Assembly (NCBI GenBank): GCA_946491665.1
Contig: CAMLYL010000018.1
Location: 1 to 39,211 of the forward strand
DNA: 39,211 nt
Reading direction: 5' to 3'
Source: an uncultured Lachnospiraceae bacterium
Lineage (GTDB): Bacteria; Bacillota; Clostridia; Lachnospirales; Lachnospiraceae
Shown here: positions 2,860 to 24,374 of the stretch, in pieces
Layout: the number at the start of each line of letters is the position of its first letter
Numbering within the stretch: the first letter of the stretch is position 1
Made by a program: the position numbers and the translations under genes
The notes under the pieces: model-generated
The model's database searches: none
What the model was told of the DNA's origin: nothing
Seen by the model: only the letters and a program-made list of their open reading frames with translations

Positions 2860-2991
2860 GGACTCTCCTCTTCCTCTTTCGTTGTTATCTCCCAGTGAAA
2901 TCTGCTGCTGCAGCATCACATCTCTCATCAAATACATAACCTCTCTCGTCCCCTTCTATACAATCAGGTAATCAGAATCGATTCCCTGAAT

Positions 2992-3020
2992 ATTATACGT
3001 GCTCTTAAAAACGTATGCAA
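2992..3020 (-). promoter_or_regulatory. Sigma-A promoter for yhaM
   Basis: On the minus strand TTGCAT and TATAAT are separated by 17 bases. The position fits a leader of about 125 bases before the yhaM start. The rest of the 2860-3182 gap holds only this promoter and the terminator of the preceding operon. Confidence 0.7.
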
Positions 3021-3112
3021 CCCGAAAATTTTTCTTTCTGACAAAAAGTAATCATCGCAATATTATGCCTGATTCTGTTTATGTTGTCTGCATCTCGCTT
3101 CAAAAATATCAT

Positions 3113-3150
3113 AAAAAGAAGAGATCCAGTCCGACAGTTCTGAATCTCTT
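3113..3150 (-). terminator. Intrinsic terminator of the six-gene operon
   Basis: On the minus strand AAGAGAT (3144-3150) pairs with ATCTCTT (3119-3125), with an inner CAG/CTG extension. CTTTTTAT follows. It lies just past the stop codon of the last operon gene, the MFS transporter ending at 3183. Confidence 0.7.
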
Positions 3151-3182
3151 TCGCTTTTCTTCTGTATAAAAAACAGAAAAAT

Positions 3183-4469
3183 TTAATTTTGTTCCTCAAT
3201 ACTGTTTCTTCCCAGTCTCCGGTCATCCAGCAGTACCGCATTTAATAAAGCCAGTGCGCTGAGGCCAATCAGAATGAAATACACCGGCTGATAAGATCCT
3301 GTAACTGTTTTCACGACTCCGGTCAATGCATAGCCACAGGATTTTACCGCCACACAAATAGGGTATATTACAGCAAAAGCATTGGCAAAATCATACCGGC
3401 CAAATACTGTATTTGTTATAGATCCCATCATATTTCCGGAACCGCCGATAAAGCCTCCAATCATAAAAATCGAAACAAACAGCGTCCATTTTCCCGGAAG
3501 AACCATAAATATCAGTGCAGTTATTGTCCAGATAAAAAATACAATAATCGCCGTTTTGGTCTTAAATTTTGTATCAATCCAGCCAAACAAATAGCTCAGC
3601 GGGAGAGCGCACAGGGCAAGCACAGTCATCATCCCGGTCGCCTCCGCTCTCTCATATCCATAGGACATAATCGTGGGAACCATCTGACTGATCACTGCCG
3701 CTCCAATCAGAAAATTGATGCCTCCAACGCCAATTCCGATCTGCCACACCTGCCTGGTCTTCAGTAATTTTTTCGGGGTCCAGGGACTGGTTCTTTTATA
3801 CATCAGTCCTTTTTCATGAAGCTCCATAACCCGCTCTTTTGACACAGATCTGTCATTATCCGGATAACATCCTTTATCCTCCGGATAATCACGGAACCAG
3901 AAAATAACAATCAGAAGAAGGATTAAAAAGGCAAGCGCGATCACATCAAAATATCCATGGAATCCGAACTTTTTTCCTCCCCAGTTAATGAGATATAAGA
4001 TGGATGCCGTTGCCAGCAGCGGCCCCATCGTTACCCAGCCCATGGCAAGCCCTTTTTTTGTAGGGAACCAGTTATTCGTCGTATTGTCCCGGATAATCAT
4101 AATGGCACTGGCTGAACAGGAACATAAGACAACACCCAGAAAATACATCGCCGGAGATACTGCTCTGGACCAGACCAGCATACCCACTGTCGCCAGCGAC
4201 AGCGCCACGATAGCCGTCGCTCTCGCACCCTTTCTTTTTGCCAGCCATCCATACAATATAATCCCTCCGATGGAAATCCATCCGGCATAGGTTGAGAATG
4301 ACAGCAGAAGGCCGGAAGACCATCCGTACTGTGCTTCAAAAGCTCCTACAAACGTGTTGAGACCATCATTCATACTTCCATTTTCAAAATACCCTAAAGC
4401 CATCATAAGAATCATTATCATCCAGTGTGTTACACCGAAATTATTTCTGACACGTTTCTTCTTACGCAT
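3183..4469 (-). CDS. MFS transporter, OFA/MCT-like
   Basis: This 428-residue membrane protein has about 12 hydrophobic segments and the major facilitator layout, with a cytoplasmic loop near residues 200-240 rich in charged residues. The overall pattern (long first helix with GYFENGSMNDGLNTFVGAF, then QYGWSSGLLLSFSTY) resembles the oxalate/formate antiporter and monocarboxylate transporter group. Known members of that group move carboxylates, so an organic acid is a reasonable but unproven substrate. A start at 4469 is chosen over 4514 because GGGAGGAGAAAGG precedes it. It is the last gene of the operon, 51 bases after the LVIVD gene, and is followed by a terminator. It differs in type from the transporter that opens the operon. 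Confidence 0.82.
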   Translation of the reverse strand: MRKKKRVRNNFGVTHWMIMILMMALGYFENGSMNDGLNTFVGAFEAQYGWSSGLLLSFSTYAGWISIGGIILYGWLAKRKGARATAIVALSLATVGMLVWSRAVSPAMYFLGVVLCSCSASAIMIIRDNTTNNWFPTKKGLAMGWVTMGPLLATASILYLINWGGKKFGFHGYFDVIALAFLILLLIVIFWFRDYPEDKGCYPDNDRSVSKERVMELHEKGLMYKRTSPWTPKKLLKTRQVWQIGIGVGGINFLIGAAVISQMVPTIMSYGYERAEATGMMTVLALCALPLSYLFGWIDTKFKTKTAIIVFFIWTITALIFMVLPGKWTLFVSIFMIGGFIGGSGNMMGSITNTVFGRYDFANAFAVIYPICVAVKSCGYALTGVVKTVTGSYQPVYFILIGLSALALLNAVLLDDRRLGRNSIEEQN

Positions 4470-4520
4470 ACCTTTCTCCTCCCAAAATTCAGATCCATGA
4501 GGCCCCTGAACCAATCCTTA

Positions 4521-5882
4521 TCACACGGTTGTCCTTAAAATGTATAATCCATCCTCCAGACAGTCCATATATATATAGCCGCGGTCATCTACAATGCAAT
4601 CCTCAGTTGTCGCAACAAGCGGCCCCGGATAATGAGGAAATCTTCTTTTTTCCGGATTCGGCGGAATAAAATAGGCAATTTCTTTAATATAATAAGGATC
4701 GCTGACATCATATACCCGCATTCCCGCTGAAAAATAGCAGCAGTAAACACGATTCGGGTTATCCTCCAGCCATGGTTTATTTGACATCGGCTCATGTACA
4801 TTATGCGGTCCGAAAGGCCCCTGCACATCCAGCATCATTTCATTAAAATTACGGTAGGGGAAATTCTCCGGCACTTCCGGATAAGGGAACTCCGCAATCA
4901 GCGTCGGCTTCTCCGGATTTCTCACATCTACCATGTGAAGATTATTCATCGGCTGGGCTTCCGTCAGCTTTTCCTTATCCATCCAGGCAAAACGCTCTCC
5001 CTCGTTTGTTACCACAACCAGATTTCTTCCAGTCAGAGGAAGCGCAGTATGACATCTGCTTCCGGCGAGTCCTCCGGAAAAAGGAGGATGAAGTTTCAGC
5101 TGACCTTTCAGCTTCGGTCTGGCTACATCAGATATATCTACAATACACAGACCGGCTCCGGAATAGCCGCAATATGCAAGCTGATCCACCACAAACGGCG
5201 GCCCATGCATATGCCCCTTATCCATAAACACGGGATTATGCTTCGCTGTCGGATCATAATCCGCTCCCAGTATTCCGTCAACATACTGTTCTGCCAGCCA
5301 CCATCTGCCGACTTCCTTCGGATGACGCGGATCCGCAATATCAAGAATCCTGTAAATCATCCCTTCAAATCCGGCGCAATCCGAGGACAGATGCACATAA
5401 CGGCCGCCATTATAGCAAAATCTGTGAACGCCGATTCCGCCGGGCACTCCATTATCCCAATAACTCAGGAATTCGGGATGTTCGGGATCATCTTTCAGGC
5501 TCCAGATCTGCACTCCATTCTGATACTTCGACGCAGTTCCCCTGTCCGCGCTGGACACCGCGGCTCCGCCGCCGCTGGACATGGCAACAATCATGAGATC
5601 ATCTGCAATCTGAATTTTCGGCGTTCTTGTGGTCGGATATTCAACGGGATCCACCACCTTCAGCCGCTGTATGTATTTCGGATGTTCCGCATCTGTCACA
5701 TCCAGAATTGTGACTCCCATAGAACTGAACGCCGCACAGTAAAGATAATACTTTCCTGCCGAGGTTCTGTACAGCGCCATCTGAAATATATTATCTTCAT
5801 TAAGATCATGAAATGCTATTACTTCCATGTTCTTAATATATCCCTCGTTTCCGGGACTCTTCGCGTAAAATTTCTCACTCAT
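4521..5882 (-). CDS. LVIVD-repeat beta-propeller protein (copy 1)
   Basis: This 453-residue protein has recurring blades of the type 'ILDVTDAEHPKYI', 'ILDIADPRHPKEV', 'IVDISDVARPKLK', 'MVDVRNPEKPTLI' and 'VYDVSDPYYIKEI', the LVIVD-repeat pattern that builds a propeller. No signal peptide is visible, so it is probably cytoplasmic. Histidines H25, H153, H224, H226, H278, H360 and H363 lie in motifs (FHDLN, VHR, HMHGPP, CHTALPL, HNVHEP) that are kept in the second copy at 15645-16955. Such a set would suit a metal centre in the propeller channel, as in carotenoid oxygenases or SBP56-type proteins; this is inference. The start has AAAGGGG upstream. It lies 19 bases after the dehydrogenase gene and so is co-transcribed. 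The biochemical role is unknown. Confidence 0.82.
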   Translation of the reverse strand: MSEKFYAKSPGNEGYIKNMEVIAFHDLNEDNIFQMALYRTSAGKYYLYCAAFSSMGVTILDVTDAEHPKYIQRLKVVDPVEYPTTRTPKIQIADDLMIVAMSSGGGAAVSSADRGTASKYQNGVQIWSLKDDPEHPEFLSYWDNGVPGGIGVHRFCYNGGRYVHLSSDCAGFEGMIYRILDIADPRHPKEVGRWWLAEQYVDGILGADYDPTAKHNPVFMDKGHMHGPPFVVDQLAYCGYSGAGLCIVDISDVARPKLKGQLKLHPPFSGGLAGSRCHTALPLTGRNLVVVTNEGERFAWMDKEKLTEAQPMNNLHMVDVRNPEKPTLIAEFPYPEVPENFPYRNFNEMMLDVQGPFGPHNVHEPMSNKPWLEDNPNRVYCCYFSAGMRVYDVSDPYYIKEIAYFIPPNPEKRRFPHYPGPLVATTEDCIVDDRGYIYMDCLEDGLYILRTTV

Positions 5883-5901
5883 TAAACAATACCCCTTTCT
5901 G

Positions 5902-6897
5902 TCATTTTCTTCGATCCTTCCATACCTGTGGATTTACCAGACTTTTCGGCTGTCTCCCCTCTAAGACGGAAATAACATTCTCTGCGGCGATCTGTGACAT
6001 TCCCGCCATACTCTCACGGGTGATTGCCGCTATATGAGGCGTAATGTATACATGAGGCGCAGATCTCAGCGGATGATTCTCCTGTAAGGGTTCCTCCTGC
6101 GTAACATCCAGCGCGGCGCCCGCGATTATTCCGTTTTTCAGCGCTTCAGCCAGCGCAGTTTCATCTGCCAGTATTCCTCTGGCACAGTTAATCAGATACG
6201 CTGACGGCTTCATCATTTTTAGCCGCCTTTCATTAATCAGTCCCCTGTAAATATCCATTCCGGGAAGATGCAGGGAAAGAAAATCTGATATCGGAAACAC
6301 GTCATCCAGTTCATTCAGTCTCTTTACATGCATTTCCCGAAAAACCTCATCCTCCACATAAGGATCATACGCGGCAACCTGCATTCCCATTGCCGCTGCC
6401 AGGCGGGCTGTCTGCTTTCCTATATTGCCAAAACCAATAATTCCAAGCACTTTATTTTGTATATCACACCCCAAAAGTTCTGCCTTTTTACTGAAATCAC
6501 CGCTTTTTCCCATTTGAATACCCGGAATCATATTTTTTGCCAGCATTAACAGGAACGCTATTGTAAACTCCGCAACACTTTCTGTATTGGAACCGGGCGC
6601 ATTCGTCACACAAATCCCTCTCTCAGAAGCCAGCGCTACATCAATCTGATCAACTCCTACTCCGTGCTGAGAAATCACTTTCAAATTCGGCGCTTTTTCA
6701 ATAAAGCGGGCGTCAACAGAACAGGATCTGGCAATGAGAGCATCTGCACACTCCAGTTCCTTTTCTATTTCTTCCGGATTTAACTTTTCCATATTCACGG
6801 TTCTGATCCAGGGAACACGGTCCAGAATCTGTTTTCCTGACGGATCAATCTCCTTTGATAAAAGAACCGTTCTTATCTTTTTCTCATCGTGTAACAT
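5902..6897 (-). CDS. D-2-hydroxyacid dehydrogenase (NAD(P)-dependent)
   Basis: This protein probably interconverts a 2-ketoacid and a D-2-hydroxyacid. The 331-residue form has the substrate domain in two parts and a central Rossmann domain with GFGNIG (155-160) followed by D178 in AAYDPY. The catalytic triad of the family is present: R240 (NCARG), E269 (QEEP) and H288 (TPHIA). A C-terminal serine-regulatory (ACT) domain as in long PGDHs is absent. The frame stays open to 7032. The start at 6897 (or 6906) is preferred for family length and overlaps the end of the upstream EthD-like gene by 14 bases, suggesting translational coupling. The exact substrate (hydroxypyruvate, glyoxylate or another ketoacid) cannot be read from sequence. 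Confidence 0.87.
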   Translation of the reverse strand: MLHDEKKIRTVLLSKEIDPSGKQILDRVPWIRTVNMEKLNPEEIEKELECADALIARSCSVDARFIEKAPNLKVISQHGVGVDQIDVALASERGICVTNAPGSNTESVAEFTIAFLLMLAKNMIPGIQMGKSGDFSKKAELLGCDIQNKVLGIIGFGNIGKQTARLAAAMGMQVAAYDPYVEDEVFREMHVKRLNELDDVFPISDFLSLHLPGMDIYRGLINERRLKMMKPSAYLINCARGILADETALAEALKNGIIAGAALDVTQEEPLQENHPLRSAPHVYITPHIAAITRESMAGMSQIAAENVISVLEGRQPKSLVNPQVWKDRRK

Positions 6898-7732
6898 AAT
6901 ATCCATCCCACTGCCGCAAATGATTCGAATTCGGATAATCCAGCACAAAAATTCCTGTAAAGTCTTTATACGGTTCAAGATACGGGAACTGATCGTATTG
7001 CGCCCATTCCGGCTTTGTAAATCTCGCCGCATTTTTTACCATGGCATCATGCCATCTGTTTGAATCTTCAAACCAGATTTCTGCCACCCGGTTCCACGGT
7101 CCTTTCTCAAAATGAGGAATACAGGGAGCTGTCAGAAAACGTCTGACCTCCTCCGCCTCACAGACTTCCGGTACAAACGTATGCAGAAACCACTCGTCTC
7201 CTTCTTCCTGCGAAACTCCTGCGGGATACTTAAAAATGATTACCCATCTGTAATTCGGTCCGTCATCAATCGTCCGTTCACTTCCCTTGAAATCATATTC
7301 CCACATCAGGGGAGTATAGCATGATACAAAAGGATGATATCCATCTCGGCTTCCATGCCATTCGGGATCCCGGAATTCATTTGTCGGCGGCTGTGATGTC
7401 ATCTCCAGAAAATTTTCCGGCCAACGCTCACAATACGGCCGAATCCAGGTGCCTTGCGGACCATAATATTCTGCCCTGTCCAGGTAAAACAGATGATTCG
7501 TCATAAACAAATTATATGTTCCAAAATCCTCTCCGTCCAGCGGCACCGGCAGCGCATGATATGTGGAATAATGTCCGCAGAAGGGACCGGTCATTGAAAT
7601 ACTGTCTTCCACATGATCTTTATAAAACCACCGCAGAACCTTCGGTATATATGCAGGATCTGAAACATTCTGAAAAATCCAGTTCTTATACGGCGGCTGC
7701 ATATACTTACTTCCAACTTTTACCTGACTCAT
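6884..7732 (-). CDS. EthD-like dimeric alpha-beta barrel protein (copy 1)
   Basis: I do not recognise this 282-residue family with certainty. Two halves look alike in layout. The first has DPAYIPKVLRWFYKDHVEDS (H40); the second (from about residue 162) has VIIFKYPAGVSQEEGDEWF followed by WNRVAEIWFEDSNRWHDAM. Each resembles the ferredoxin-like EthD/dimeric alpha-beta barrel fold, where a short chain with a histidine near the first helix is typical, so this may be a fused tandem of that fold. Residues shared with the adjacent copy include YHALPVP, GYHP, ERTIDDG, GPWNRV, LEPYKDFT and SNHL. No signal peptide or membrane segment is seen. AAAGGAGGG precedes the start, and that site overlaps the stop codon of the upstream copy. 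Function unknown; enzymes of this fold act on small organic compounds. Confidence 0.7.
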   Translation of the reverse strand: MSQVKVGSKYMQPPYKNWIFQNVSDPAYIPKVLRWFYKDHVEDSISMTGPFCGHYSTYHALPVPLDGEDFGTYNLFMTNHLFYLDRAEYYGPQGTWIRPYCERWPENFLEMTSQPPTNEFRDPEWHGSRDGYHPFVSCYTPLMWEYDFKGSERTIDDGPNYRWVIIFKYPAGVSQEEGDEWFLHTFVPEVCEAEEVRRFLTAPCIPHFEKGPWNRVAEIWFEDSNRWHDAMVKNAARFTKPEWAQYDQFPYLEPYKDFTGIFVLDYPNSNHLRQWDGYYVTR

Positions 7733-7747
7733 CGCTTTCTCCCTCCT

Positions 7748-8584
7748 TTATCTTGAAACAATATAGCCCTTGTACTGCTGCAGATGATTGCTGTCCGGTC
7801 TGTCCATAAGGAAAATACTTGTAAAATCCTTATAAGGTTCCAGGTATGGGAAAACATCATACTGCGCCCACTCCGGCGGCCGAACTGTCTCCATACATTT
7901 GCGCATCGCATCCTGCCATCGGTAAGAATCATCAAACCACAGTTCCATCACTCTGTTCCAGGGCCCCTTTTCCGGATGCGGAATACATTTTGTACTCAGA
8001 AACCGAAGTACCTCTCCGCAGTCACACAGTTTCGGCGCCAGCTCACTGAAAAACCATCGGTCTCCCTCCTCCCGGGATACCCCTTCCGGATATTTAAAAA
8101 TACACAGCCATCTTGTATTCGCCCCATCATCGATCGTCCGTTCTTTTCCCTTCAGATCTTTTTCCCAGTACAACGGTACAAAACAATTTACAACCGGATG
8201 ATATCCGCCGCGGCTTCCGCACCACTCTGTATTTCGCAGTTCTTTTCCAACTGGCTGATTTGTAATTTCAAGAAATTCATCATCAAATCGCTCCGCATAG
8301 GGTTTTACATTCCCGTCCTCTCCGTAAAAATCACTTCTGTCAATCACATAATGGTGTTCCGTCATAATCCAGTTGTATGCGCCAAAATCATCTCCCATAG
8401 CAGGAACCGGAAGCGCATGATATGTGCAGTACTTTAAACAAAATGCGTCAAACATGGAAATGCTGTCCTCCACATGCTTTTTATACAGCCAGTAAAAGGC
8501 CTTTGGAAGATACGCCGGATCCTTTACATCATTCAGAATATAACTCCGAATGGGCCCTATTTTGTTTTCTTTGCTGTCAATCAT
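7748..8584 (-). CDS. EthD-like dimeric alpha-beta barrel protein (copy 2)
   Basis: This is a tandem paralogue of the next gene downstream; by eye more than half of the residues match over the full length. The 278-residue protein keeps H37 (KKHVEDSIS), H56 (YHALPVP), H129 (GYHP) and H267 (SNHL), the ERTIDDG segment, and the WAQYD-FPYLEPYKDFT tail. The frame is open to 8617, but the start at 8584 has AAGGAGG at the right distance. The N-termini of the two copies differ, while the cores do not, which fits two subunits of a heteromer or two enzymes with different substrates. The gap to the upstream MFS gene is 88 bases and to the downstream copy 15 bases. Confidence 0.7.
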   Translation of the reverse strand: MIDSKENKIGPIRSYILNDVKDPAYLPKAFYWLYKKHVEDSISMFDAFCLKYCTYHALPVPAMGDDFGAYNWIMTEHHYVIDRSDFYGEDGNVKPYAERFDDEFLEITNQPVGKELRNTEWCGSRGGYHPVVNCFVPLYWEKDLKGKERTIDDGANTRWLCIFKYPEGVSREEGDRWFFSELAPKLCDCGEVLRFLSTKCIPHPEKGPWNRVMELWFDDSYRWQDAMRKCMETVRPPEWAQYDVFPYLEPYKDFTSIFLMDRPDSNHLQQYKGYIVSR

Positions 8585-8672
8585 TCTCTTTTCCTCCTTA
8601 AAATTCAGAAACCCCATCCTGTGTTTCTATTTTGATCACAATACCAAATCATATTCTCTGCTGATACATTTC

Positions 8673-9887
8673 TCACATTTTCATCTTTTTAACGGCTATA
8701 ATCGTAAATACCAGCGTAGCCAGCGTCATAATGATACTGCCCTTGAAAAAGCCCGAAAAACCAAATGCATCAATTACAAATCCCCATACGAAAGCAGCCA
8801 GGCCAAGCCCTGCCGCAAATGCAATATTCAGGGTTCCCTGTGTTTTGCCTTCCCGTCCTTTCGGGCAGCGCTTCATACCTATTGCTATGCAGGGACTCTT
8901 CAGCAATCCGGCCGCAACTCCCCATAAGATTCCGAGAACAAAGAAATTTGTTCCGCCTGCAATCATATACACATAGGATAAAGCGCCAAGCACCAGTGAC
9001 GGAACCAGAATCGGGAGGTTTCCAAATTTGTCAGTAATTTTTCCCGCAAAGAGACACATTACGAACTGAGCAATTCCATTTGCCGTAAAAAACAATCCCA
9101 CTCCGCCAAGATCATTAACAGATGCAAATAACGTTACATAAGACTGGAAGCCCTGAAAACCAATCGCTCCAAACAGATAAATCAAAGCCGGGACAATAGC
9201 TGAAACTTCAATGACTCTGGAAATTCCTTTTCCAATAACCTCTTCTGAAACTTCCTCTTTCTTCTCTGCTGCCGGACTATCTGATTCTGCTTCAATGTCT
9301 TTTTTCTGCAGAAAATTACAGAGTACCGCTATAACTACCAGCAGAGTCGAAACCGTAAATACCATAAAATAATCTGCGTTTCCAACTACATAAGACACTC
9401 CGGCCACACCAACCAGCGCAACTCCGAGATTGCCGCCCACAAACTGAGATGCAGTCTGCGGAATACCATTAAAGAAAAATGCCCCTTCACCGGACCGGCT
9501 CAGCGGAACTGACTTATGAGCGGCTGTCAGAGATGCGGTGATCAGACAGGCATGTCCGCAGGCCTGTATAATCCGAAGAACCAGAATAATATACGCATTT
9601 GTTACAAATATCATTGCAAACAGACCGGCGCCAAATAAAATACCGCCCAGAAAAGCAATTTTCTTCGTTCCCTTTGCGTCAGACAAACTTCCCGCCAACG
9701 GTCTCACAATTACTGCGGTAATTGTCCAGGCAAGGCTGATCGCGCCTGTTACAGCCGCTCCATTTCCCAACGAATTAATAAAAACCGAAAAAACTGATCC
9801 CGTTACCTGATAGCCGATATACAAAGCTGCAATACCGATTACAATAATGACAAAATTACGATTAAATAATTTTTCTTTTGTCTGCAT
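8673..9887 (-). CDS. MFS transporter, drug/sugar-efflux-like
   Basis: This 404-residue protein has about 12 hydrophobic segments. A motif-A-like loop RPLAGSLSDAKGTKK lies after helix 2 and a matching loop AGKITDKFGN sits in the second half, both typical of the major facilitator superfamily. A charged central loop (about residues 195-215: EAESDSPAAEKKEEVSEE) separates the two six-helix halves. It is not of the same subtype as the transporter at the other end of the operon. It is the first gene of the operon, with GGGAGGG before its start and a leader of about 70 bases. It could import the substrate or export a product; direction cannot be told. Confidence 0.82.
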   Translation of the reverse strand: MQTKEKLFNRNFVIIVIGIAALYIGYQVTGSVFSVFINSLGNGAAVTGAISLAWTITAVIVRPLAGSLSDAKGTKKIAFLGGILFGAGLFAMIFVTNAYIILVLRIIQACGHACLITASLTAAHKSVPLSRSGEGAFFFNGIPQTASQFVGGNLGVALVGVAGVSYVVGNADYFMVFTVSTLLVVIAVLCNFLQKKDIEAESDSPAAEKKEEVSEEVIGKGISRVIEVSAIVPALIYLFGAIGFQGFQSYVTLFASVNDLGGVGLFFTANGIAQFVMCLFAGKITDKFGNLPILVPSLVLGALSYVYMIAGGTNFFVLGILWGVAAGLLKSPCIAIGMKRCPKGREGKTQGTLNIAFAAGLGLAAFVWGFVIDAFGFSGFFKGSIIMTLATLVFTIIAVKKMKM

Positions 9888-9959
9888 ACGTAAATCCCTC
9901 CCTGAGTAAATTCAAGTCTTTTTTCAATGAACTGCGTACGGGCCCTGAACGATAATAAA

Positions 9960-9987
9960 ATCATAAATCAATGTCCTTTTTTTGCAA
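9960..9987 (-). promoter_or_regulatory. Candidate promoter of the six-gene operon
   Basis: On the minus strand TTGCAA and TATGAT are 16 bases apart, about 70 bases before the first start codon. A TTGACA (9989-9994) is also present but spaced too far from any good -10 box. The -35 lies inside the inverted repeat at 9972-10002, which would let a bound regulator control the promoter. Confidence 0.4.
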
Positions 9988-10002
9988 ATGTCAAAAGGGA
10001 CA
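9972..10002. promoter_or_regulatory. Candidate operator, inverted repeat
   Basis: TGTCC (9972-9976) and GGACA (9998-10002) are exact inverted arms, with flanking T-rich and A-rich stretches extending the symmetry inside. The site lies between the operon and the divergent CdaR-type regulator and overlaps the candidate -35 box. It is a plausible binding site for that regulator, but this is not shown. Confidence 0.35.
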
Positions 10003-10076
10003 AAAATATATTGCGCAGTTTATGCACCAAAACAAACACAGAAAAAACTGATTCTATTTTATGGAACTCCTATGAT

Positions 10077-10168
10077 ATAATAGGAGCACTTAGTGAGGTA
10101 TTTTCGAGCTTAGTGCGAGTCATGCTGTGCATAATAGGAGCACTTAGTGAGGTATTTTCGAGCTTAGT
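10077..10168 (+). repeat. 54-base tandem repeat, 1.7 copies (locus A)
   Basis: A 54-base unit starting ATAATAGGAGCACTTAGTGA begins at 10077 and again at 10131; the second copy stops after AGCTTAGT at 10168. The same arrangement, with one repeated base change (AGT to AGC in CTTAGTGAG) and the same 54-base period, is found at 24279-24360. Both loci begin with TGATATAAT, an extended -10 promoter motif. Each unit can fold by GCACT/AGTGC pairing. The length of 54 keeps a reading frame open through the unit, but no credible start codon with a ribosome site leads it. Confidence 0.75.
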
Positions 10169-10188
10169 ACTTCCTGGAGTATTTTAGA

Positions 10189-10290
10189 CTTCAGCTGATA
10201 TTCAAGACCCGCTCACGGGTCTTGGCGCGGGATTCGGGTCAGCTTCAGCTGACATCTTCCTTACTGAATCCCTGCGCATCCCCGCGGAGC
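10189..10290. repeat. Folded intergenic block (nested hairpins)
   Basis: Several strong stems follow each other. CAAGACCCG (10203-10211) pairs with CGGGTCTTG (10216-10224). GGGATTC (10229-10235) pairs with GAATCCC (10266-10272), extended by GCGC arms. Within that loop GTCAGCT (10238-10244) pairs with AGCTGAC (10247-10253). The motif CTTCAGCTGA occurs twice (10189-10198 and 10244-10253). No protein-coding frame explains it. It could be a structured RNA in the regulator leader or part of a small non-autonomous mobile element. Confidence 0.6.
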
Positions 10291-10291
10291 G

Positions 10292-10380
10292 TATATCAGG
10301 TGGGGGATTGACACACGCCACTGATACCGATTTGTTGCTCGCCGACTATAGAGGCGGGAGTCATCTCCCCACCTGATATA
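10292..10380. repeat. 89-base element with 14-bp terminal inverted repeats
   Basis: TATATCAGGTGGGG (10292-10305) and CCCCACCTGATATA (10367-10380) are perfect inverted repeats around a 61-base centre. The layout is MITE-like, or it may be the hairpin end of an IS200/IS605-type element without its genes. It ends 32 bases before the start codon of the regulator, so it would be in or beside that gene's leader. No transposase gene is in the window. Confidence 0.55.
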
Positions 10381-10412
10381 TAATTACTCAGCATTATACA
10401 ATGGAGGTTTTT

Positions 10413-11639
10413 ATGGCTAATGAAACAAATGAATTCTCTGCATTGATATTTCATGATTTAAAACATTTATTAAATTGTTCGTCATATGAAAACTTAGCGC
10501 TGTCTGTCGGGAAAATCTCCCATACAGATGTAATCATTTTGGATCATACTTTTCAGGTTTCCGGAATCTGCACTCAGAAGGATTCTGTCATTCCGGAAGA
10601 ATTTTCTTTTAAAATGGGAATGTATATTTCATCTGCGACAAAACATTTCAGTAAACTTTGTTCTGCTTTCGAACAGTCGCAGCATTTAAATAGTACCGTT
10701 GTTTTAAAAAATCTGATAACAGAGAAATGTGTTGTCTGTAAAACTGTATTTGACAAAAACTGTATCATCGGATACATTTTGCTGATTGCATCCCATGACC
10801 AATACTCTGATTTTTTTATATTTACAGCAGAAAGCGCCTCGCTGGGGATGGCAAAAATATTTTATTCTCAAAACAAAGAATATCCCCCTGACACACTGCT
10901 GCTTTCTGAACTTTTAAGCAATAAAAAAGTACCGGAAGAAATTATAAATCAATGGCTGGAGCAGATGCATTGGAAACCGTCCGATTACATCTATGTTATT
11001 GTCATCCGCAATCCAGTCGGAAAAGTACTCCCGCCTGATATTGTCCATCAGTTTGATATCCTGAGTTCAGATCGCGCTCTGATCTTTGACTATGATCTGG
11101 TCTGGATTATGACGCAGCCAAAACGTCTGGAAGGTTTTGATATAGAAAGAATCGAACCCCTTAATAAAAAACTGAAAGAACTCAATTTGTATGCAGGACT
11201 GAGCAGACGCTGTCCCGCCATAGGGAGTCTGTATACTTCTTACAGACAAGCGGTCTGTTCCCTGGAAAAATGTATTTACAATCAGGAACCCAATTTGCAT
11301 ATTATGCCTTATATCGACACCTGGATTGACGATTTGCTAAATGAGATATACCCTCTGGTAGATTTGAAAAAATACTGTACTCCTCAGCTTACTGCCCTGG
11401 AAACTTATGATAAAAAAACAAACAGCGATTTACTTAATACATTAATCTGTTATTTTGAACACAATCAAAATCTTAAGGAAACTTCAGAAACAATGTATCT
11501 CCATCGTAATACGGTAAAATACCGATTGAGTAAATGCGAAGAAATATTGGAAACAGATCTGAATAATATGAACAGAAATCTTGGAATCTACTTTTCTCTG
11601 AAAGTAATCAGTTTTCTAAAAAATAAGAGCCGGCAATGA
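10413..11639 (+). CDS. CdaR/PucR-family transcriptional regulator
   Basis: This 408-residue protein carries a sensory N-terminal half without clear motifs (about 1-180), a central region like the GGDEF-related domain of CdaR (about 190-310: YIYVIVIRNP, AGLSRRCPAIGSLYTSYRQA) and a C-terminal PucR-type helix-turn-helix (about 340-408: NQNLKETSETMYLHRNTVKYRL). Characterised relatives activate genes for sugar acids, glycerate, purines or similar compounds. It is divergent from the six-gene operon and is its most likely regulator. An ATG at 10401 is in frame, but the GGAGG at 10403 serves the ATG at 10413, so that start is used. The protein is AT-richer than its neighbours. Confidence 0.85.
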   Translation: MANETNEFSALIFHDLKHLLNCSSYENLALSVGKISHTDVIILDHTFQVSGICTQKDSVIPEEFSFKMGMYISSATKHFSKLCSAFEQSQHLNSTVVLKNLITEKCVVCKTVFDKNCIIGYILLIASHDQYSDFFIFTAESASLGMAKIFYSQNKEYPPDTLLLSELLSNKKVPEEIINQWLEQMHWKPSDYIYVIVIRNPVGKVLPPDIVHQFDILSSDRALIFDYDLVWIMTQPKRLEGFDIERIEPLNKKLKELNLYAGLSRRCPAIGSLYTSYRQAVCSLEKCIYNQEPNLHIMPYIDTWIDDLLNEIYPLVDLKKYCTPQLTALETYDKKTNSDLLNTLICYFEHNQNLKETSETMYLHRNTVKYRLSKCEEILETDLNNMNRNLGIYFSLKVISFLKNKSRQ

Positions 11640-15644: not shown

Positions 15645-16955
15645 TTACACCGTACACCGGAAAACTGACAGGCCTCCGTTGGAATCTGTCATGTAAATAT
15701 ATCCTCTGTCATCCACCAGAACATCTTCACACCTGGAAATTACCTGTCCGGCGTTCATCATCGGCGGAACCGGCCAGAGATCTTTCTCAGGATCCGCAGG
15801 AATATAATATGCGATCTCCCGGATATTATAGATGTCTTCCGTATCATAAACCCGGATTCCTCCATTGAAGCAGGTCAGATACTGCCGATCCGGCCGATCC
15901 TCATAGTGGGGCTGTCCCTGAGGCTGATGGAAATTATGAAGTCCCGGTCTTCCGCCTTTCTCCACATAATTCTTGAACGGTGCGTCCTCCGGCACAGAAT
16001 ATGGAGGAAACAGTGACACCAGCGCCGGGTGCGTTTTATCTGAAATATCCACAATCCCCGCGAACTGTGCGTGTCTGCCGTCGCCTCCCAGTTCCTGGGT
16101 CAGAATCAGATAGTTTTCATTCGACCCTGTCAGCGGCAGCGCCGTATGACAGGAAATAAAATCAGAAAATGGCGGATCTGTTTTCAGACTCCCCACATAT
16201 TTGGGCCTGGCAGGATCTTTCACATCCAGAATAATCAGTCCGTAACCACAATAGGCCAGATACGCATACCCATCCTTTACCTGAGGCATATGAAGATGGT
16301 AATGCTTATATCCCGGATACGGACAGAGGGAGTCCGGATCAATTTTATCCGTATCCCATTCCACATGATCCATACCGTCCAGCCACTGCTCTTTCAGATA
16401 CCAGCGTCCCACCTCCACAGGATTTGCCGGATCAATAATATCAATAATCCGGAAAATATTGTTCAGAAATCCAGGACAGCTGGATGTTGTATACACATAT
16501 CTGCCGCCTGCATAAAAATTCCTGTGCGTATTGATACCGTCAATCCCGGCTCCGCCGCCATTGCTCCAGAACCCCAGCAGTTTCGGATTCATAGGATCTG
16601 TTTTCACATCCCAGATCCCGATCCCTGCATCATAATCGTCATAATCCACACCTTCCATAGGCAGAAACCGAACCCGCTGTCCGGAGGCAGTAATCATAAT
16701 ACCATCCGCAATCTGGATCTTTGGGTGAACTGTTCCCGATTTTCCTCTCGGATCATCCAGATGCTTACAGCGGATATCTTTCATGTCCGTCACATCCAGA
16801 ATCTGCCACCCCTGATGATAGTAAGTTGTCACATACAGATAATATCTGCCGTCCACCACCTGAAGCGCCATCTGGAACCCCGGCTGCCCGTTCAGATCAT
16901 GGTATGCCGCCAGTTCCATATTCTTCGATAAAGGTTTTTCTACTTTTACTCCCAT
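15645..16955 (-). CDS. LVIVD-repeat beta-propeller protein (copy 2)
   Basis: This 436-residue protein is a clear paralogue of the protein at 4521-5882, with the same order of blades and the same end (DDRGYIYM..., then a final VFRCTV). Blades include ILDVTDMKDI, IIDPANPVEVGRW, ILDVKDPARPKYV and IVDISDKTHPALV. The histidines H19, H144, H220, H222, H270, H340 and H343 occupy the positions of the seven named for copy 1, in motifs YHDLN, THR, HLHMP, CHTALPL and HNFHQP. No secretion signal is seen. It is a single-gene unit with its own promoter and terminator, divergent from a LysR gene. Function unknown; the conserved histidines suggest metal binding. Confidence 0.82.
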   Translation of the reverse strand: MGVKVEKPLSKNMELAAYHDLNGQPGFQMALQVVDGRYYLYVTTYYHQGWQILDVTDMKDIRCKHLDDPRGKSGTVHPKIQIADGIMITASGQRVRFLPMEGVDYDDYDAGIGIWDVKTDPMNPKLLGFWSNGGGAGIDGINTHRNFYAGGRYVYTTSSCPGFLNNIFRIIDIIDPANPVEVGRWYLKEQWLDGMDHVEWDTDKIDPDSLCPYPGYKHYHLHMPQVKDGYAYLAYCGYGLIILDVKDPARPKYVGSLKTDPPFSDFISCHTALPLTGSNENYLILTQELGGDGRHAQFAGIVDISDKTHPALVSLFPPYSVPEDAPFKNYVEKGGRPGLHNFHQPQGQPHYEDRPDRQYLTCFNGGIRVYDTEDIYNIREIAYYIPADPEKDLWPVPPMMNAGQVISRCEDVLVDDRGYIYMTDSNGGLSVFRCTV

Positions 16956-17008
16956 TTTTCCATCTCCTTTTTTCTTTAAAGTGTATCACCGGAAAAAAGG
17001 AATGTGAA

Positions 17009-17038
17009 ATTATAAAATATCATATTCTGGCATAACAA
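17009..17038 (-). promoter_or_regulatory. Candidate promoter for LVIVD copy 2
   Basis: On the minus strand TTGTTA and TATAAT are 18 bases apart, about 55 bases before the start at 16955. A second possible pair, TTCACA and TACACT with 17 bases, lies closer to the gene. Either would be controlled by the LysR protein transcribed the other way. Confidence 0.45.
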
Positions 17039-17052
17039 AATGGAATAATATG
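17021..17052. promoter_or_regulatory. Candidate LysR operator
   Basis: CATATTC and GAATAATATG form interrupted dyad symmetry in the 127-base gap between the divergent LysR and LVIVD copy 2 genes. The arms overlap the -35 region of the LVIVD promoter and sit just before the LysR gene, the usual place for an autoregulatory LysR site. Confidence 0.3.
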
Positions 17053-17082
17053 TTATACTGTTTCAAAGGAGGAACGATCTTT

Positions 17083-18033
17083 ATGAACAGCAGTCAGATC
17101 ACATGCTTTTTAGAAGCAGCCAGACAACGGAGTTTTTCAAAAGCTGCGGAAAATCTGTATCTCTCCCAGCCGGGGGTCAGCAAACTGATCGCCGCGCTGG
17201 AAAAAGAACTGGGACATCCTCTGTTCTTCCGCACGCCTCACCGCCCGGTGGAACTGACTCCCGCCGGCCGCCTGTATTATGAATTTTTTTCAAAAACAGA
17301 ACATGAATTTCATCAGATCGGCGAAAAGGCCCAGATCATGTCCCGCCAGCTTTCGGGAAAAATACGCCTCGGTTTTCTCTCGGGATGGAATGTCATTTCT
17401 ATTCTGCAGCCATATCTGGATGAATATAAAATGCATTATCCCCAGGTAGACATCCAGCTTTTTTTCTGCGATCCCTCTCCTCTGCGGGATGAACTTCTGC
17501 ATGCTTCTCTGGATGCCATTGTCACGCTGGACGATTCCCTTCAGAATTGCAGTTCTCTGAAAAAAATCGCTTTCGGAAAGATACAGCGTATGCTTTTCAT
17601 TTCCAGAAATCATCCTTCTCTTCCCAGAGATCATGTTCCCACTATTCAGGATTTAAAAAATATAACTTTCTATATCGTTGCTGACGCCTCCTTCGATTCC
17701 CGGACATTTGTCTCAAATCACCTGGAAGCCTGTGGAATCACGCCGAATATACAAATTGTGCCAAATGTAGAACACGCTGTCGCCTGTGTACATAATCATA
17801 TGGGAGCCGCCGTAATTGATGAATGGTCCAGAGAAATGGGACAGTCATCCCTCTGGCACATCCCTTTAAACACTTTCAACCAGGCAGTTCTGGCCTGGAA
17901 TCCGGACAAAATGAGTCCTCCATTGAAAGCTTTTACAGAACAATTTTCTTTTATAACTCATCCGCTGCCTGACATTCCTGTACAAACAGGGGAAGTACCG
18001 GATTCGTGTTATCTTTCCGATAATACAGATTGA
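17083..18033 (+). CDS. LysR-family transcriptional regulator (divergent to LVIVD copy 2)
   Basis: This 316-residue protein has an N-terminal winged helix-turn-helix (residues 1-60: SQITCFLEAARQRSFSKAAE, LSQPGVSKLIAALEKELG) and a C-terminal substrate-binding domain of the periplasmic-binding type. An ATG at 17050 is in frame, but AAAGGAGG at 17065-17072 points to the start at 17083. Its divergent partner is the LVIVD copy 2 gene, which is its most likely target. The C-terminal tail extends about 25 residues past the expected end and is encoded by DNA that also encodes the C-terminus of the next LysR gene on the other strand. Confidence 0.88.
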   Translation: MNSSQITCFLEAARQRSFSKAAENLYLSQPGVSKLIAALEKELGHPLFFRTPHRPVELTPAGRLYYEFFSKTEHEFHQIGEKAQIMSRQLSGKIRLGFLSGWNVISILQPYLDEYKMHYPQVDIQLFFCDPSPLRDELLHASLDAIVTLDDSLQNCSSLKKIAFGKIQRMLFISRNHPSLPRDHVPTIQDLKNITFYIVADASFDSRTFVSNHLEACGITPNIQIVPNVEHAVACVHNHMGAAVIDEWSREMGQSSLWHIPLNTFNQAVLAWNPDKMSPPLKAFTEQFSFITHPLPDIPVQTGEVPDSCYLSDNTD

Positions 18034-24278: not shown

Positions 24279-24360
24279 ATAATAGGAGCACTTAGCGAGG
24301 TATTTTCGAGCTTAGTGCGAGTCATGCTGTGCATAATAGGAGCACTTAGCGAGGTATTTT
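24279..24360 (+). repeat. 54-base tandem repeat, 1.5 copies (locus B)
   Basis: The same 54-base unit as at 10077-10168 starts here at 24279 and again at 24333; the second copy ends at GAGGTATTTT, just before the mutS2 ribosome site. The extended -10 motif TGATATAAT (24275-24283) opens it, and TTTTCA lies 17 bases before TATAAT, so this can be the mutS2 promoter with a repeated leader. Compared with locus A, the only shared change is AGT to AGC in both units. Confidence 0.75.
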
Positions 24361-24374
24361 TGAGGAAACAGATT

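Follow-up and report, generated by a model that had tools for sequence, protein, structure and literature searches.

The steps catalysed by flavone reductase (FLR) and chalcone isomerase (CHI) belong to a described pathway of bacterial flavonoid breakdown (PMC7862272, PMC9694015), and flavone and flavonol catabolism in Flavonifractor plautii is the subject of PMC7862272. CHI converts taxifolin to alphitonin (PMC9694015), which is then cleaved "by an unknown enzyme" in the words of PMC12203004 (2025). Phloroglucinol and 3,4-dihydroxyphenylpyruvate have been proposed as products in PMC11170127, the accessible part of which names no enzyme and reports an aryl-lactate from C. scindens and an aryl-acetate from C. 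decagia. Eubacterium ramulus degrades quercetin with 3,4-dihydroxyphenylacetate as the end product (PMC6548854), and Fcr together with PHY gives 3,4-dihydroxyphenyllactate (PMC12203004). Here we describe a six-gene operon at positions 3183 to 9887 of a 39,211-nucleotide stretch of DNA (the window) from an uncultured Lachnospiraceae bacterium (GenBank assembly GCA_946491665.1, contig CAMLYL010000018.1). The operon most likely breaks down plant flavonoids, and the LVIVD beta-propeller that it encodes is a good candidate for the missing alphitonin-cleaving enzyme.

All six genes lie on the minus strand in the order MFS_A, CHI_A, CHI_B, HDH, LVIVD1, MFS_B, as the original prediction had stated, and profile matches bear out its family names for the dehydrogenase, the LVIVD protein and the major facilitator superfamily (MFS) transporters:

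8673..9887, minus strand: MFS_A, major facilitator transporter, 404 residues, first gene of the operon (PF07690, E 9.6e-32)
7748..8584, minus strand: CHI_A, divergent bacterial chalcone isomerase, 278 residues, start chosen by ribosome-binding site (PF18232, E 8.8e-20; 4d06, E 1.9e-50)
6884..7732, minus strand: CHI_B, divergent bacterial chalcone isomerase, 282 residues (PF18232, E 1e-16; 3zph, E 1.5e-43)
5902..6897, minus strand: HDH, D-2-hydroxyacid dehydrogenase, 331 residues, overlapping CHI_B by 14 bases (PF02826, E 7.6e-57, and PF00389, E 1.5e-33, for the longer open reading frame)
4521..5882, minus strand: LVIVD1, beta-propeller, 453 residues (PF08309, E 3.9e-9, 36.1 bits against a cut-off of 20.2)
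3183..4469, minus strand: MFS_B, carboxylate-type MFS transporter, 428 residues, last gene of the operon (PF07690, E 1e-27)

The operon shares CHI and the same LVIVD family with the FLR-CHI pathway of F. plautii (PMC7862272), but the window genome (G000 in our numbering, where G, C and L denote genomes, contigs and loci) has its FLR on another contig, a doubled CHI, and an added dehydrogenase and two MFS transporters. The likeness to the E. ramulus quercetin route through taxifolin and alphitonin lies in the shared genus and in the CHI and LVIVD genes that E. ramulus carries; that route ends in 3,4-dihydroxyphenylacetate (PMC6548854), whereas the window operon is predicted to lead to an aryl-lactate. 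Catenibacillus scindens converts quercetin and taxifolin to 3-(3,4-dihydroxyphenyl)lactate via a proposed aryl-pyruvate, which is the kind of product predicted here, yet its authors found no CHI of the E. ramulus type in it (PMC11170127). The window operon differs from the known flavonoid-degradation clusters by its exact gene set, while the kind of cluster is already known. Among open-licence papers, screened by title, none ties a propeller to bacterial flavonoid breakdown, although a subscription paper could exist.

Predicted Pathway

The substrate would be a flavonol- or flavanonol-type flavonoid or a close C6-C3-C6 polyphenol, and its assignment to the flavonoid class is fairly firm. MFS_A would import the polyphenol, and a flavonol would be reduced to a flavanonol by the flavone reductase encoded elsewhere in the genome (G000:C66). 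CHI_A and CHI_B would then open the flavanonol C ring by means of His33, giving a chalcone or diketone whose ring closure yields an auronol such as alphitonin; this chemistry is known for E. ramulus and is predicted for the pair. LVIVD1 would hydrolyse the aryl-carbonyl C-C bond of the auronol or diketone to phloroglucinol and a 3-aryl-pyruvate, a role proposed for the propeller because of its gene linkage, its fold and the gap in the pathway. HDH would use NADH to reduce the aryl-pyruvate to an aryl-lactate, and in some relatives a 2-oxoacid:ferredoxin oxidoreductase, phosphotransbutyrylase (Ptb) and butyrate kinase (Buk) would instead yield an aryl-acetate and ATP. Aryl-pyruvate is the suggested product of the preceding step because both the dehydrogenase of the window and the three enzymes of the relatives fit it. 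MFS_B would export the aryl acid. On this scheme LVIVD would be expected in bacteria whose route runs through alphitonin, such as C. decagia, and would not be required in C. butyricum, which is unable to degrade quercetin (PMC11868195).

Taken as a whole, the reading of the locus as a flavonoid operon with a CHI pair, LVIVD as a C-C hydrolase and HDH leading to aryl-lactate, which is drawn from sequence comparison, has about an even chance of being correct. The broader proposal is more tentative, with the balance tilted slightly against it: LVIVD would represent a new class of C-C hydrolase cleaving auronols, and the window would hold a variant in which a doubled CHI and an aryl-pyruvate reductase yield aryl-lactates where relatives make aryl-acetates.

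The Chalcone Isomerase Pair

The original prediction took the two middle genes for EthD-like. Both are Chalcone_N proteins (PF18232), scoring 71.5 (CHI_A) and 61.6 bits (CHI_B) against a Pfam cut-off of 25, and the solved E. ramulus chalcone isomerase aligns with CHI_A (4d06) and CHI_B (3zph) over nearly the full chain. The EthD label was rejected, as Chalcone_N was the sole Pfam model matched at E values up to 1. Judged by sequence, CHI_A and CHI_B, which are 57–59% identical to each other, are duplicated and diverged bacterial chalcone isomerases with a predicted isomerase/ring-contraction activity. This identity narrows the substrate to flavonoid-type compounds; the earlier view of an uptake and catabolic operon for an aromatic or plant compound was right in outline and becomes more specific.

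The residues His33, which has a catalytic role, Asp36 and His73 are named in PMC9694015. The equivalent of His33 is invariant in all 16 aligned proteins, CHI_A and CHI_B included, Asp36 is nearly invariant in the same alignment, and both window proteins keep the equivalents of Asp36 and His73. They thus resemble the E. ramulus enzyme in the Chalcone_N domain, the near full-length alignment and these three residues; they differ from it in standing in tandem, in forming a separate clade and in the substrate contacts (Asp79, Gln101 and the lid 106–130), which, according to PMC9694015, set specificity and not family. Asp79 and Gln101 are replaced, and the lid is about 11 residues shorter than in the E. 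ramulus enzyme in an alignment read by eye. CHI_A is 32–40% identical to 14 aligned canonical CHIs. Its full-length matches other than CHI_B in 20 genomes of the genus are 34–42% identical, and the pair is therefore without a close orthologue among the genomes searched. The window genome holds two further CHIs, one of ordinary type on contig C1 and one of distant type on C137.

Linkage of LVIVD with Chalcone Isomerase and Flavone Reductase

Neighbours of LVIVD genes were scored by tblastn at 80 loci, those kept of 180 relatives in public records. CHI stands in 43 of these loci (in two of them only the distant C137 type), FLR in 40 and both in 39. The CHI-linked state requires 12 changes on the LVIVD tree, at least nine of them forced by well-supported branches; many of the loci belong to a single group that shares its gene order, while gene orders overall differ. 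FLR, CHI and LVIVD are all found inside a 4-kb stretch of F. plautii ATCC 29863 (L077). The FLR-like protein of L098, the one tested, matches the solved FLR 7d38 (E 6.7e-77), and the term 7D38 occurs in PMC7862272, which describes the F. plautii FLR. LVIVD1 is 60–65% identical to the propellers of FLR-CHI loci, and the window genome's own FLR (G000:C66:4558-5499) lies outside the operon and is 53% identical to the F. plautii protein (E 3e-97). LVIVD is carried by E. ramulus, F. plautii and E. oxidoreducens, the last of which uses quercetin, and it also occurs in records labelled Chloroflexota (Leptolinea), Acidobacteriota (Holophagaceae) and Spirochaetota (Treponema).

The two genes also occur together across genomes. 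Every genome draw included the window genome itself. Among 299 genomes of the family, LVIVD (E ≤ 1e-30) was found in 10 and Chalcone_N in nine, and the nine Chalcone_N genomes coincide exactly with those whose LVIVD is close (E 1e-156 or better). Six of 391 genomes of the class matched a CHI_B search (E ≤ 1e-10), and all four that have LVIVD are among them; LVIVD, FLR and CHI form one cluster in G416 and G592 and lie on different contigs in G644. Fisher tests of the co-occurrence, uncorrected for kinship, gave 2e-17 (family) and 1.6e-8 (class). When 18 genomes were picked via their LVIVD loci, 16 had a Chalcone_N match, 15 of them over the cut-off.

Genes for 2-oxoacid oxidoreductase, Ptb and Buk accompany LVIVD in seven of the 80 loci (L047, L049, L056, L069, L078, L087, L093), and these enzymes form the usual route from a 2-oxoacid to the acid and ATP. 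L065 and L112 have only weak oxidoreductase matches; two loci outside the 80, L027 and L257, carry all three genes, with the families checked in L257. A relative of HDH occurs in one of the 80 (L094), 30–32% identical and at least 6 kb from LVIVD, with no CHI there. The earlier statement that no described pathway has this gene set holds for the exact combination, which was seen once and in none of the other loci scanned; it fails for the parts, as CHI and FLR belong to a described pathway, LVIVD is linked to both, and this three-gene linkage recurs among the 80 loci.

Several other features of these neighbourhoods were recorded. Four records of Clostridioides difficile (L070, L071, L072, L122) have a single cluster in which LVIVD lies together with FLR, CHI and a membrane protein of the DUF1097 type, which suggests flavonoid breakdown in some lineages. 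The small membrane protein (L113:11364-11855; PF06496 DUF1097 in L257) is present in 27 of the 80 loci and may be a flavonoid transporter. The distant, shorter chalcone isomerase of C137 type (L008:2267-3055), possibly a further pathway enzyme, lies near LVIVD in four loci (L060, L061, L075, L092), of which two belong to the same genome. Two CHI loci without LVIVD (L259, L260) encode a DAPG-hydrolase-like protein (PF18089, E 2.6e-4 and 1.5e-3, under the cut-off); proteins of this kind, about 205 residues long and 74–78% identical, lie near FLR, CHI or LVIVD at L049:11568-12182, L259:10302-10979 and L260:7747-8367.

The LVIVD Propeller

The predicted structure of LVIVD1 is a propeller (pLDDT 88.0, pTM 0.90, with 34 sequences), and its best structural matches are propellers. 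Foldseek places the phosphotriesterase 5hrm at the top (E 8.1e-18), with the next distinct protein at 9e-9, nine orders behind; the list also contains a putative isomerase (1ri6) and a 6-phosphogluconolactonase (6nau). Phosphotriesterase-type propeller hydrolases such as 5hrm have a binuclear metal site in the central pore. The haloalkylphosphorus hydrolase/phosphotriesterase of Sphingobium sp. TCM1 (5hrm, 5ioj) resembles LVIVD1 as a propeller, as its best Foldseek match and as a weak hit of the LVIVD profile (E 1e-6), but is 14% identical to it and acts on a different substrate.

Nine residues, Gln34, Lys89, Gln91, His153, Arg154, His278, Glu294, His360 and Asn361, are invariant in all 96 LVIVD proteins, and His226, Asp428 and Asp432 are changed or missing in one of the 96. 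Judged by the predicted strands, several of these residues appear to open inner blade strands, as would be expected for a site in the pore, and it is probable that the conserved histidines and acidic residues of the central pore form a metal site. The core pore residues are kept in LVIVD2, a second propeller of the window, and in a distant homologue (G065), which lacks Gln199 and Glu427.

The Dehydrogenase and the Transporters

D-2-hydroxyacid dehydrogenases are marked by GxGxxG and an Arg-Glu-His active site. HDH has both domains of the family, GxGxxG and the Arg/Glu/His motifs, its best match in the PDB is 1wwk (E 1.4e-61), and it is proposed to be an aryl-pyruvate reductase. The ncbifam matches of MFS_A are far under the cut-off (best TIGR00880, 3.6e-9; bile-salt MFS, 1.2e-6), as those of MFS_B are under theirs (SfMCT, 3.8e-21; 2A0111, 2.6e-14). 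MFS transporters related to MFS_B lie near LVIVD or CHI in L035, L067, L087 and L253.

Counter-Evidence and Alternative Explanations

A number of observations weigh against the pathway proposed above. Linkage points to a shared pathway and not to a given reaction. In the CHI tree (43 of 62 collected proteins, midpoint root, with a long-branch warning) CHI_A and CHI_B group as a separate clade (97/91) and branch outside the canonical CHIs, which form a clade of 36 rows (100/100), and in the alignment read by eye Gln101 is replaced by Thr and Asp79 by Arg in both, an Asp standing one position before the Arg; on both grounds their substrate may differ, and the pair may act on a different C6-C3-C6 compound. 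CHI is not a neighbour of the LVIVD genes in E. ramulus (L068, L035) or E. oxidoreducens (L126), and in the loci scanned a dehydrogenase stands beside CHI and LVIVD only in the window. The tenth LVIVD genome of the family, G065, has a distant homologue (38%) and no CHI or FLR match; since its core pore residues are kept, the pore by itself does not determine the substrate. CHI occurs without LVIVD in G457 and G519 of the class. Within the genus, CHI was found in 16 of 20 genomes, LVIVD in 13 and both in 12 (Fisher p 0.10), with CHI alone in G700, G706, G708 and G712 and LVIVD alone in G705. Among the 18 genomes picked via LVIVD loci, G692 (Treponema) and G695 gave no Chalcone_N match. In G697, which shares its genus with Cand. 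Scybalocola faecavium, FLR is present, and neither CHI nor LVIVD was found; it is possibly C. scindens, and if so, aryl-lactate arises there by another route, for which Fcr and PHY are on offer in PMC12203004. The DAPG-hydrolase-like gene of L259 and L260 had the look of a replacement for LVIVD at CHI loci, yet it also adjoins LVIVD in Clostridium puniceum (L049).

That gene matters for an alternative in which flavonoid catabolism stands and LVIVD takes another step, by racemising, tautomerising or isomerising alphitonin or the chalcone, or as a lactonase or esterase of a related polyphenol, while a phloretin-hydrolase-type enzyme cleaves the C-C bond. Propellers have many functions, 1ri6 and 6nau are in the Foldseek list, and the DAPG-hydrolase-like gene sits next to LVIVD in C. 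puniceum and in L259 and L260 without it. It was, however, not found in the stretches read of the other six of the seven oxidoreductase-Ptb-Buk loci, and the step without an enzyme in the literature is alphitonin cleavage (PMC12203004), so that we consider LVIVD rather unlikely to act elsewhere in the pathway. HDH could also work in the opposite direction, oxidising to aryl-pyruvate an aryl-lactate that Fcr and Phy had made from the flavanonol. Reactions of the D-2-hydroxyacid dehydrogenase family are reversible. The product 3,4-dihydroxyphenyllactate is indeed obtained with Fcr and PHY in PMC12203004, yet neither gene is in the operon (the rest of the genome was not searched) and the two CHI genes favour the isomerase route, which leaves this reversed branch very improbable.

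The position of CHI_A and CHI_B in the tree, their exchanged contact residues, the shorter lid and an operon that itself has no FLR would also suit a pair that has left flavonoids for another plant or host compound (a stilbenoid, a lignan or another Michael acceptor), which would make the operon part of a different pathway. Against this stand the retained His33, Asp36 and His73 and the close similarity of LVIVD1 to the propellers of FLR-CHI loci, and we hold such a departure to be improbable. A chance grouping of transport and redox genes that do not work together, in keeping with a gene set seen once, is barely credible given the tight packing on one strand ahead of one terminator and the many genomes in which CHI and LVIVD occur together and side by side. 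The flavonoid operon with LVIVD as the C-C hydrolase is the reading that we prefer.

Operon Layout and Surroundings

The features around the operon are as follows:

3110..3150 (limits approximate), minus strand: intrinsic terminator, 11-pair hairpin with a U-rich tail (fold of 3095-3185)
10401..11639, plus strand: divergent PucR/CdaR-type transcriptional regulator, 412 residues (PF13556 HTH_30, E 1.2e-18; PRK11477 CdaR, 2.9e-12, under the cut-off)
15645..16955, minus strand: LVIVD2, second propeller of the same family, 44–46% identical to LVIVD1 (PF08309, E 3.6e-13)
17050..18033, plus strand: regulator divergent from LVIVD2 (open reading frame), which we take to be of LysR type

Start codons were chosen by ribosome-binding sites, that of HDH by alignment to its family. 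The longest open reading frames are too long in three genes, with likelier starts at 8584 for CHI_A (against 8617), 6897 for HDH (against 7032) and 4469 for MFS_B (against 4514). The gaps in operon order are 88, 15, -14, 19 and 51 bases, exactly the range of 15–88 bases with one 14-base overlap given before, and the divergent CdaR/PucR-type regulator is likewise present. The single terminator was confirmed after the last gene: the fold of 3095-3185 on the minus strand has -22.3 kcal/mol (z -2.55) and was as stable in two of 200 shuffles, although a simple pattern scan did not list the hairpin 3' of MFS_B. The claim of a single candidate promoter is unproven, as 24 promoter-like sites came out of a scan of 2900-10500, where shuffled sequence gave 15.3 ± 4.2, and the site upstream of MFS_A (9988-9960, minus strand, 9/12) is weak.

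Two repeats lie upstream of the operon. A direct repeat of 38 bases, in two copies at a spacing of 54 bases (10077-10168), resembles a dispersed repeat; at a distance of 14 kb (24279-24361) its first 29 bases turn up again as a pair with 1–2 mismatches, which was seen in none of 100 shuffles. Between the operon and the PucR/CdaR-type regulator (10292-10380) lies an imperfect inverted repeat whose 31-base arms are 81% complementary; it may be a small mobile element, because its 14-base end occurs once on contig C66 (L263).

No more than about 10 kb separates LVIVD2 and its divergent LysR-like gene (15645-18033) from the operon. G291 (L036) and G698 (L261) have relatives of LVIVD2 at 88–89% identity, with no CHI in those stretches, and the relative in G698 also lies beside a LysR-like gene. 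Proteins similar to the regulator at 17050..18033 are present in 40 of the 80 LVIVD loci. E. ramulus (G159) has another LVIVD gene, which shares a run with genes for an MFS_B-like transporter, a probable short-chain dehydrogenase and one more small protein (L035:8759-12798), and Flavonifractor sp. AGMB03687 has two adjacent LVIVD genes (L125:10001-12805).

The window is the entire contig C18 of a 3.35-Mb assembly (84% complete, 3.5% contamination), so that absences from this incomplete genome mean little. The stretch looks chromosomal because of what are presumably ribosomal protein, RpoA, SecY and adenylate kinase genes within 30.8–38.7 kb. The organism is a relative of E. ramulus in the same genus, since G159, a genome of that genus, and E. 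ramulus ATCC 29099 (L068, G684) have in common the LVIVD position and three CHI matches.

Biological Significance

Quercetin and other flavonols rank among the main polyphenols of the diet, and it is the gut bacteria that determine which phenolic acids the host takes up. A conserved family of LVIVD proteins that often travels with CHI and FLR makes the alphitonin-cleavage step directly testable with a substrate that can be bought. If the assignment is true, genomes could be scored for complete flavonol breakdown, the dehydrogenase would hint at producers of aryl-lactates, and C-C hydrolysis would join the known tasks of beta-propellers.

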